Of a DNA stretch of 64,000 bases, positions 24,200 to 28,568 are shown in pieces. The notes under the pieces are model-generated. The model had not been told where the DNA came from and did no database searches. It saw only the letters and a list, made by a program, of their open reading frames with translations. Position 1 is the first letter of the stretch, and every line of letters begins with the position of its first letter. The stretch covers positions 186,001 to 250,000 of the forward strand of contig NZ_JAERQG010000002.1 of NCBI RefSeq assembly GCF_016734805.1, read 5' to 3'. This stretch comes from Marivirga atlantica. GTDB taxonomy: Bacteria > Bacteroidota > Bacteroidia > Cytophagales > Cyclobacteriaceae. Both the position numbers and the translations under genes were made by a program.

Positions 24200-24281
24200 T
24201 TATTGTTAAATAGTTGTTTTGACAGAATAAAAATGTGTTTATGTGAAAAATACAGAATCAGTATTTATTTTTCACTAATTG

Positions 24282-24315
24282 TTTTGAGATTCCAAAAAAT
24301 GTTTTGATACATTTG
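24282..24315 (+). promoter_or_regulatory. Promoter of the S-box leader / methionine operon
   Basis: TTTTG at 24282-24286, 21 nt, then TACATTTG at 24308-24315: both elements match the Bacteroidota consensus at correct spacing. The predicted start near 24320 lies about 20 nt before the riboswitch. Confidence 0.7.
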
Positions 24316-24342
24316 AATCATATAATCGGAATCAATTTATAA

Positions 24343-24425
24343 AGAAGAGGCGAGAGACAGGCTTGTTGACCCTCTGGCAACCTGAGTGAACAAGGTGCCA
24401 AATCCTGCTCCGAATTTGGGAACTA
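24343..24425 (+). ncRNA. SAM-I (S-box) riboswitch
   Basis: The segment contains GAGAGACAGGCTTG, GACCCTCTGGCAACCT, AAGGTGCCAAATCC and TGCTCC in order, the conserved core of the S-box: k-turn side of P2, GCAACC junction, the GGTGCCAAxTCC block and the P4 region. The compact form with CTCTGGCAACCT is common in Bacteroidota. It precedes osmC-like, metY, metX and hom, so high S-adenosylmethionine would lower expression of methionine synthesis genes. The exact P1 pairing and the switch to an expression-platform structure were not folded. Confidence 0.88.
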
Positions 24426-24439
24426 TAAATTGCAAAACA

Positions 24440-24568
24440 ATGAACAATCACAATCTCGGTGCGCTGAGCACAACACTCCAAAATCTTTCAGAATTACATT
24501 TTGTTAATCATCAAATAGTTTCTCCGCAAATTATTTGTTGTTGTCGCTGTATGCGAATGTGTAAGTAA
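24440..24568 (+). CDS. Cys/Met-rich leader peptide ORF (putative attenuator peptide)
   Basis: A 42-codon ORF starts about 15 nt after the riboswitch (ATG at 24440, preceded by an A-rich GCAAAACA). Its last eleven residues are ICCCRCMRMCK: five Cys and two Met codons within nine codons (24536-24562) right before the TAA. No known protein domain is visible. Position, length and the terminal run of the very amino acids made by the operon fit a leader peptide whose ribosome stalling reports cysteinyl- and methionyl-tRNA supply. An in-frame ATG at 24386 lies inside the riboswitch core and is an unlikely start. This is inference; nothing here proves translation. Confidence 0.6.
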   Translation: MNNHNLGALSTTLQNLSELHFVNHQIVSPQIICCCRCMRMCK

Positions 24569-24591
24569 GCTTACTATCAATCTTTTTGGGT

Positions 24592-24640
24592 TATAGCTTT
24601 TGGTGCCAGTGGTACGCTTTGGCTATATCTCACTTCTTTT
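24592..24640 (+). terminator. Candidate attenuator hairpin downstream of the leader ORF
   Basis: TATAGC (24592-24597) pairs with GCTATA (24622-24627), and GTGCC pairs with GGTAC around AGT inside, leaving an internal loop. A pyrimidine-rich TCTCACTTCTTTT follows. It starts 24 nt after the leader stop codon, close enough for ribosome position to matter. A 12-nt palindrome AGTAAGCTTACT (24564-24575) overlaps that stop and could form an alternative structure. Stability was not calculated. Confidence 0.4.
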
Positions 24641-24666
24641 AATTTTCACATTTTTATTTATTTATC

Positions 24667-27392
<2,726 letters not shown>

Positions 27393-27402
<10 letters not shown>

Positions 27403-28568
27403 CAAAGGTGGCTATTTTTGGTCTCGGCACTGTAGGACAAGGAGTTTTCGAAAAGTTAAATTCTACAGCATCCAGTACTATACAGGTAGAAGCAGTTGTA
27501 GTTAAAAATGAACAAAAAGAGAGAGATGTAAATGGCTATTGTCATCTTTTGAAATCAGAGAATGATGTTTTTTCTAACGATGATATTCAAGTTATTATAG
27601 AACTCATCAACGACTATGAGCAGGCATACCACATTGTCAAGAAGGCTCTGAGTGAGGGTAGAACAGTTATAACTGCCAATAAAAAGATGCTTTCCTTCTA
27701 TCTGGAAGAACTTCTGCAAATTGCTGAAGTAAACGGTTCACACTTGTATTATGAAGCGGCAGTTTGCGGCAGTATTCCTATAATTAATTTGTTAAATGGA
27801 TTCTATACGGGTAATAGACCTGTAGGTCTAAAAGCAATTGCTAATGGTACCAGCAATTACATTTTAAGTAAACTTAATAATGGTGAAACTAATTTTGACA
27901 TGGTTTTGAAAAAAGCCCAAGATGCTGGTTTTGCTGAAGTTGATCCATCAGATGATGTAAAGGGTTTTGATGCCAGGGCCAAATTACAACTAATGATGCT
28001 TCATGCTTTTGGAGTATTAGTAGACCCATTACAAATACCTTCATTTGCTATTAGTGTGGTGAATGAAGAGATTATTCTTTTTGCCAAGAAGTACAATTTG
28101 AGTGTTAAGCTGATAGCCTCAGGGGAGGTGTTTGATAATAAGATTAATGCTAGCGTAATCCCTCATTTCATTAATGATAAAAACTCTTTTAATGATGTTG
28201 AGGAAGAACAAAATCAGGTAGTTGTAACTAATCAGTTATCTGGTGAGCAGATTTTTAGAGGGAAAGGTGCTGGGAAATATCCGACTACACAATCTGTTTT
28301 AGCTGATTTAGAATTAATAAAAAAGGGTATTTCTTATAATTCGGAATATTTAAAAGCAGAAATTTCTAATAGAGATGATGATTACTTTTACCTCTTTAAC
28401 AAAGGTGGCAATAATGAGATACTGCATGATTTTGAAATTCTTTTTAGTGAGAGATCACATTATATAGTAAAAACTAATATTCGTAAACTGGATAAATTGG
28501 TAAAAGTCAATCAAGAAATTTTTGTAGCCCAAGTTGACATTTCAGACTTCGACTTTCTCTCGCTTTAG
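27393..28568 (+). CDS. hom: Homoserine dehydrogenase
   Basis: 391 residues. The NAD(P) motif FGLGTVGQGVFEKLN is at 8-22. The catalytic region IANGTSNYILSKLNNG (about 148-163) is followed by AGFAEVDPSDDVKGFDARAK near 178-197, which contains the acidic and Lys residues that position homoserine and aspartate semialdehyde. The C-terminal region after about 310 is not a recognisable ACT domain to me. It makes homoserine for the acetyltransferase encoded just before it. With metX and metY it forms a compact homoserine-to-homocysteine module. Confidence 0.92.

Follow-up and report, generated by a model that had tools for sequence, protein, structure and literature searches.

A Cys/Met-coded leader ORF set against a SAM-I riboswitch upstream of metY in Bacteroidota: a putative nested two-input mRNA leader

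For a given set of genes, a riboswitch and a leader-peptide attenuator are usually viewed as alternative solutions. Leader ORFs with runs of cysteine codons have been predicted before cys operons in actinobacteria, in Mycobacterium without conserved terminators (PMC1262725), and the mycobacterial polycysteine leaders were later studied (Canestrari 2020, as cited in PMC13236596). In Rhodobacterales, uORFC-8-2 precedes cysS, has two tandem Cys codons and was proposed to act through ribosome-mediated attenuation (PMC8632094). Riboswitches controlling upstream ORFs (uORFs) are described in Mycobacterium tuberculosis, namely the B12 switch of ppe2 (PMC11260477) and the Mbox of pe20 (PMC12810186), and the SAM-II riboswitch of S. 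meliloti metA controls translation close to an upstream AUG, a terminator lying further downstream (PMC9373788). Leader-peptide attenuation has been mentioned in general terms for a flavobacterium (PMC9723704), and short ORFs occur in long 5′ UTRs of B. thetaiotaomicron (PMC7366714). In the open-access literature (subscription papers and preprints were outside the scope), no report of a leader peptide coupled to a SAM riboswitch was found for Bacteroidota; each half of the arrangement is known, and the joint is new as far as that literature was searched.

Here, we analyze such an arrangement in the window, i.e., the whole 64 kb stretch of DNA under analysis, which belongs to a genome of 4.19 Mb in 14 contigs. 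Its relevant features are as follows.

24284..24315, + strand: candidate promoter with a Bacteroidetes sigma-A type TAnnTTTG box, read from the sequence
24334..24431, + strand: SAM-I (S-box) riboswitch aptamer, by RF00162 score
24440..24568, + strand: leader peptide ORF of 42 codons, read from the sequence, with a counterpart ORF in 124 of 130 family metY upstream regions including the window
24536..24565, + strand: codon tail Cys Cys Cys Arg Cys Met Arg Met Cys Lys (CCCRCMRMCK), read from the sequence
24564..24575, + strand: palindrome AGTAAGCTTACT of 12 nt across the leader stop, read from the sequence
24587..24632, + strand: post-leader hairpin (H2-like), then a T-rich stretch (z −3.02 for 24569-24645)
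24667..25110, + strand: OsmC-like protein, operon gene 1 (PF02566, E 2.3e-15, above the Pfam cut-off)
25122..26450, + strand: metY, O-acetylhomoserine sulfhydrylase (TIGR01326, 669 bits, cut-off 495)
26437..27402, + strand: metX-like homoserine acyltransferase, 321 aa (TIGR01392, 280 bits, below the cut-off of 500)
27393..28568, + strand: hom, homoserine dehydrogenase (NF004976, 289 bits, cut-off 205; PF00742)

The first-pass annotation had placed an S-box riboswitch at 24343-24425, and this interval indeed falls inside the RF00162 match at 24334-24431, which scores 64.6 bits against a gathering threshold of 44.4, passes the curated threshold and is the only Rfam match at gathering threshold across the window. 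Helix P1 of the aptamer pairs 24333-24341 with 24424-24432. The 42-codon ORF with a Cys/Met end that had been read ahead of the operon is likewise present, with its ATG at 24440, 7 nt after the 3′ strand of P1, its tail CCCRCMRMCK and its stop at 24566-24568; the palindrome reported over the stop, AGTAAGCTTACT, was found at 24564-24575 and is a weak candidate for the post-leader helix H1 described below. The leader peptide matched no NCBIfam or Pfam family at E ≤ 1. The candidate promoter has a TTG at 24284 and TACATTTG at 24308-24315, the TAnnTTTG consensus being taken from the available part of PMC9723704; a generic sigma-70 scan was not above chance (2 found vs 2.4 expected). The gene order after the leader (osmC-like, metY, metX-like, hom) is that of the operon named in the first-pass annotation and is confirmed by Pfam and NCBIfam, with MetX and OsmC under the NCBIfam cut-offs, the latter though above that of Pfam. 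The MetX-like protein is short (321 aa) and scores under the MetX cut-off. When cysteine synthesis was sought in the same genome, adjacent cysE-like and cysK-like matches were found at C10:116135-117531, both under curated cut-offs, and no poly-Cys ORF was present within the ~300 nt read upstream of the cysE-like gene.

A search with the peptide sequence gave matches in 74 of 196 family genomes at E ≤ 1, and among the matches listed none outside the window lay at a metY leader. Such a search misses relatives because the body of the peptide is not conserved, and a position-based search was therefore needed. We read upstream of the 28 family loci with an OsmC-like gene from 390 genomes, a gene that most of the sampled family genomes lack (28 of 390 have it). 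An upstream ORF with at least three clustered Cys codons was present at 26 of these 28 loci, the clusters being mostly the final residues (e.g., CMCCCC, MCCCSCC and CCMCICCPCCC) and internal in L087-L089; the exceptions were L090, with two Cys only, and L085, with none. Rfam detected the SAM-I aptamer at all 20 of the OsmC-like loci L064-L083 and also at L087, L090 and L096. Marivirga aurantiaca, Fulvivirga aurantia and Shiella aurantiaca are among the carriers of the poly-Cys upstream ORF. ATGCGAATGTG, encoding Met Arg Met Cys, is common to the window and four of four aligned congeners, with the ORF body diverging.

Since OsmC is rare in the family, the survey was redone starting from metY. 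Matches at E ≤ 1e-150 were obtained in 148 of 192 genomes, with 149 places listed, and we read the upstream regions of 130 of these, including the window, leaving out one second copy and the 18 places with the lowest scores. Leaders were called by a rule blind to cysteine, which demanded the SAM-I core by regular expression, P1, and a first ATG between −3 and +45 from the 3′ end of P1 opening at least 8 codons. Rfam scans covered the window and 57 loci, and elsewhere the aptamer was recognized by the core-sequence regular expression. Of the 130 regions, 128 contained the aptamer core and 124 an ORF, 4 had no ORF and 2 no core. The leader ATG lies −3 to +15 nt from P1 in 123 of the 124 family leaders; taking a uORF start codon within reach of the aptamer closing helix as the criterion, these 123 leaders meet it.

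The last 12 codons of the 124 leaders contain at least three Cys in 84 (window included), at least two in 96 and none in 19. By comparison, at least three Cys were reached in 0.4% of shuffled ORFs, in 15 of 124 ORFs read in frame +1 and in 1 of 124 in frame +2. Of the 1487 residues encoded by the last 12 codons, 452 are Cys, vs 13 of 2395 in the first halves. Met is also enriched in this 12-codon tail, with 147 occurrences in the 124 ORFs taken together, not counting the start Met, vs 42 of 3239 body residues. All counts are unweighted for the relatedness of genomes. Even so, and with relatedness uncorrected, the Cys tail is far beyond chance across relatives. Among 32 pairs of related leaders, TGT and TGC differ in 53 of 191 Cys:Cys columns, and 36 columns pair Cys with another residue; the pairs were preselected for Cys tails, and the count is biased accordingly. 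Judged by sequence, and with this preselection in mind, the leaders keep codon identity while synonymous positions and the body vary. The window, as one of the 84 family leaders that do so, also has the layout expected of an amino-acid leader peptide, a short ORF ahead of the pathway genes in which codons for the amino acid concerned are bunched toward the stop.

The first-pass annotation had offered conservation of the small ORF and its Cys/Met tail as a check, and would have been refuted by relatives that keep the hairpin without the ORF or without its Cys/Met codons. The opposite was seen among relatives: the position and the tail are widely kept, and the peptide body and the hairpin sequence change. 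Because ORF position and Cys/Met tail are so widely kept, the two-input control that it proposed is well supported as a reading of the anatomy, although the regulation itself is inferred, no expression data being available.

The arrangement extends beyond the family (Cytophagales and Bacteroidia, as names of the order and class genome samples, are inferred). In the class sample, all 17 metY matches outside the family were read under a looser rule that accepted any ORF before metY, and 15 of 17 had at least three clustered Cys in the upstream ORF (L316 had only CC and L318 none); Rfam found the aptamer at 12 of 17, and aptamer and Cys ORF occurred together at 11 of 17. In the order sample, the 21 best-scoring non-family loci, from 84 matching non-family genomes, included 19 with the aptamer core and 17 with a poly-Cys leader, in which runs reached seven Cys. 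As a control, we inspected 31 loci picked for a SAM-I aptamer alone, including the other site in the window's genome (L001), with the caveat that some of them front metY and some have no long ORF in the stretch read. A Cys cluster was present at 5 of the 31: L041, L043 and L048 are metY leaders by coordinates, the gene at L045 is unidentified, and the ORF at L057 is ~200 nt away. No Cys-rich ORF was found in nine metH-type SAM leaders (L042, L053-L056 and L058-L061; DGAMGTMIQ motif). These control loci indicate that the poly-Cys leader mainly accompanies metY.

The two parts also occur apart. Poly-Cys leaders without a riboswitch were found at L304, L307, L311 and L315, and 40 of the 124 leaders have fewer than three Cys in the last 12 codons, so that some lineages lack the Cys input, whether by loss or otherwise (three of the 19 leaders with none have CCCC just upstream). 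Since each occurs without the other, aptamer and Cys leader are separable modules. An ORF start against P1 with zero Cys in the last 12 codons was observed at L210, L217, L191, L196, L197, L224, L227, L244 and L245, which, as far as sequence can tell, is an apparent loss of the cysteine input.

Several further observations concern related elements. L001 (G000:C7:360439-360550) is the second SAM-I riboswitch of the genome, scoring 71.4 bits, with a metH-like ORF 39 nt downstream and no Cys-coded ORF. In the A2 alignment of 20 aptamers, metY/osmC leaders share an A/U-rich P1, mostly GATTTATA/TATAAAT, and the other aptamers, metH-like ones among them, have P1 strands of CTTATC/GATAAG or GATGAG; the two P1 types may suggest two lineages of SAM-I switch. 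A second leader type was seen before an osmC-like gene on contigs mostly titled with Bacteroidales genera, with an MMCMCCCM-like run in the middle of the ORF followed by a mostly conserved HVEG (L128, L134, L136, L141, L142, L147, L150, L151, L155, L156, L160, L162, L163, L165 and L169). From the end of these ORFs to the osmC-like match the distance is 86-97 nt, the 14 that were scanned with Rfam (all but L151) have no SAM aptamer, and at L128 and L136 a tRNA lies ~200 nt upstream. The pattern TGYTGYTGYTRR gave 22 to 64 matches in each of 10 genus genomes vs 1 to 8 when reversed; the matches were not sorted by coding frame and may or may not include poly-Cys leaders.

The region after the leader stop is structured. 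The hairpin and T-rich tail noted in the first-pass annotation are both present in the window, where 24569-24645 folds with an MFE of −18 kcal/mol and only 1 of 200 shuffles folds as well; the fold of the leader ORF itself is unremarkable (z 0.06). A terminator scan of the window leader (24200-24700) returned 0 sites. To generalize, we used 79 Cys-tailed leaders from an earlier count of 109 ORFs, which had missed P1 at 14 loci, the window among them; the window is absent from this set. Across the 79 leaders, the last 11 codons plus 90 nt are more structured than shuffles, with a mean z of −1.41 and 49% below −1.5; no such excess was seen for the leader body (mean z −0.04, 77 leaders) or for the final 60 nt ahead of the gene (mean z 0.27, 40 leaders). 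Pairing of the Cys codons with downstream RNA was not general (mean z −0.32, 79 leaders). Few terminator-like sites follow the leaders (6 of 79 vs 2.2 expected), and a similar scan of 20 kb of the same genome is evidently insensitive, because it found 12 sites vs 11.8 expected. An intrinsic terminator as the general output, at 6 of 79 leaders vs 2.2 expected, is not supported. Of the attenuation suggested in the first-pass annotation, the Cys/Met leader peptide holds, and the device need not be a classic intrinsic-terminator attenuator.

RNAalifold predicted 0 pairs on A3, an alignment of 17 leaders. In one subclade, a leader-end helix (H1) and a strong hairpin (H2) could be aligned in 19 hand-picked leaders (A4). 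This alignment goes back to 20 leaders, reduced to 17 in A3; L213, L226 and L254, which did not align, and L220, nearly identical to L218, were then removed, and six relatives were added. In A4, 92.1% of the H1/H2 cells are paired and 9 pairs show double changes, compared with at most 52.7% and 2 in slid versions. Paired cells, double-change cells and the covariation score exceed all 500 shuffles, and the number of pairs with double changes exceeds 490 of 500; further pair types showed no excess, since 318 of 500 shuffles reach their number. It should be kept in mind that the 19 leaders were chosen by eye and that the H1/H2 structure was read from the same alignment. As a separate observation, A4 leaders have a mostly conserved GTGACAGG-like loop with compensatory stem changes, i.e., a structured RNA after the leader; its carriers include L190, L214, L218, L229, L235, L239, L241, L247, L255, L070 and L072, and this GTGACAGG-loop RNA might be definable as a motif of its own.

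Modelled folding of the window leader adds only a little. With P1 forced, the mean unpaired probability of 24425-24448 falls from 0.64 to 0.51, and that of the AUG rises from 0.36 to 0.42. The unconstrained fold has no P1 and an MFE of −75.4 kcal/mol vs −69.2 kcal/mol with P1 forced; in it, the 5′ side of the aptamer (24343-24356) is predicted to pair with ~24610-24640, the 3′ part of the hairpin plus the tail. This pairing may be a direct link between both elements or may be chance, and it was seen in one sequence only. When a ribosome masks the Cys codons, the window hairpin stays in the predicted fold, and it is partly paired with the aptamer 5′ side only in the unconstrained and at-stop folds. 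The folds ignore the ligand, proteins and the initiating ribosome, and the support that they lend to a masking of the leader start by P1 is weak and modest at most.

Based on these results, we consider it somewhat more probable than otherwise that the locus is a nested two-input mRNA leader in which SAM gates translation of the leader and the Cys/Met tail reads tRNA charging; the regulation is inferred. The first-pass annotation had a riboswitch and a leader peptide in series, and both parts are there, but their coupling looks tighter than that, since the leader AUG directly adjoins P1. The constant distance between P1 and AUG leaves no room for a separate expression platform. The A/U-rich P1 strand lies inside the ribosome landing site, for which reason SAM is proposed to control ribosome loading. 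From this geometry, P1 stabilized by SAM would cover the A/U-rich initiation region and keep ribosomes off the leader, and at low SAM the leader would be translated. The codons then suggest that the ribosome would pause at the terminal Cys codons, often accompanied by Met, if Cys-tRNA and perhaps Met-tRNA are short. The fold of the region after the stop may depend on whether there is no ribosome on the leader, one held up close to its end or one that is terminating, and this fold may in turn gate transcription or stability of the osmC-metY-metX-hom mRNA; the output step is inferred and could equally be Rho-dependent or run via mRNA decay. The expected polarity would be expression only when SAM and Cys/Met are both scarce. 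The parts, their fixed spacing, the in-frame enrichment for Cys and Met, the wide conservation and the structure after the stop are observed; the effect of SAM on the leader, SAM binding, Cys sensing, polarity and output are inferred in the absence of transcript, translation or ligand data.

Two independent regulators in series would need the riboswitch to act through long-range structure on transcription or decay, with the poly-Cys leader as a separate Cys attenuator. The poly-Cys leaders without an aptamer (L304, L307, L311 and L315), the riboswitch leaders with an ORF start but no Cys, and the unconstrained window fold, which pairs the aptamer 5′ side with the post-leader hairpin region, speak for such independence. 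That pairing comes from a single sequence, however, and with the AUG so close to P1 (−3 to +15 nt in all but one of the 124 leaders) no space is left for an expression platform; we regard the serial arrangement as doubtful. It could also be argued that the ORF is untranslated and that the pattern reflects chance or nucleotide-level structure, and direct translation data are absent, yet no computed result favors this, and both the frame-specific Cys enrichment, relative to shuffles and to the other two frames, and the interchange of TGT and TGC run against it; we find it scarcely tenable.

A Cys-rich peptide may itself be a sensor, as exemplified by CruR, which senses as a nascent chain. For the present leader, such a sensor would respond to metal, sulfide or redox state; the conserved residue is Cys, and an OsmC-like thiol protein is the first gene of some operons. 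Against this, the leaders differ without constraint in how many Cys they have and how these are spaced, Met residues are interspersed, and the tail in most cases runs right up to the stop; the tail is therefore codon-like rather than motif-like. A sensing peptide hence seems quite improbable to us. The same two sensors might instead have another output without switching hairpins, the leader being translated to protect the mRNA from Rho or decay, or being coupled to the genes by re-initiation. General U-tract terminators were not found in the 79 leaders (a similar scan was insensitive in this genome), and both outputs have counterparts in M. tuberculosis, where the available parts of the reports describe Rho-dependent termination at the pe20 Mbox (PMC12810186) and termination-reinitiation at ppe2 (PMC11260477). 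Nevertheless, structure is specific to the stretch that follows the leader stop, where a subclade also shows covariation, and the stops lie 61-216 nt (70 of 79) or 575-685 nt (9 of 79) before metY, which is far for tight coupling. We consider this second output the less likely one while keeping it as a serious possibility.

Returning to the nested leader, whether it represents a class of RNA logic gates, in which a SAM-I riboswitch has as its expression platform the translation of a Cys/Met-coded attenuator across many families of the order and class (inferred to be Cytophagales and Bacteroidia), is in our estimate evenly balanced. SAM would decide on loading of the sensor ribosome, and tRNA charging on its stopping point. 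Two modes of control here seem joined, one controlling the input of the other, and there are enough species for comparing joined leaders with those that lost the Cys input and those lacking the riboswitch. If true, this would be a natural two-input RNA circuit in which one leader combines information on the methionine-branch end product with information on the supply of cysteine; it would account for the small Cys-ending ORFs before metY and would indicate that the use of sulfide by MetY is adjusted to cysteine in addition to SAM.

Among known systems, the window aptamer is like other SAM-I/S-box riboswitches (RF00162) in scoring well over the family threshold and fronting methionine genes, but the nearest start codon, set against P1, is that of the leader peptide, not of a metabolic gene. 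The S. meliloti metA SAM-II riboswitch would share translational action at an upstream AUG, which is inferred for the window; in the available part of its description no amino-acid-coded leader is mentioned, and AUG2 is in frame with AUG1. In ppe2 and pe20 of M. tuberculosis, a riboswitch governs a small ORF ahead of the main gene, as is proposed here, but the ligand, phylum and genes differ, and the accessible portions of those reports do not describe the uORFs as amino-acid-sensing leaders. Tandem Cys codons in a uORF are shared with uORFC-8-2, which differs in having two Cys codons and a U-run terminator in its consensus, with no riboswitch mentioned in the portion of the source at hand. 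The mycobacterial polycysteine attenuators, as far as the partly available sources describe them, are also short ORFs with a Cys run near the stop upstream of a sulfur amino acid operon, and their Mycobacterium alignment (PMC1262725) has no conserved terminator hairpin. They differ in that the window ORF stands behind a SAM aptamer, in Bacteroidota, before metY and with Met among its Cys codons. A cited title calls the mycobacterial ORFs leaderless, which does not hold for the window ORF: judged from the layout, with no mapped start, it begins ~100 nt into the transcript, provided that the aptamer is transcribed. By analogy, the window leader would work like a polycysteine attenuator placed under a translational riboswitch, a function that is inferred.
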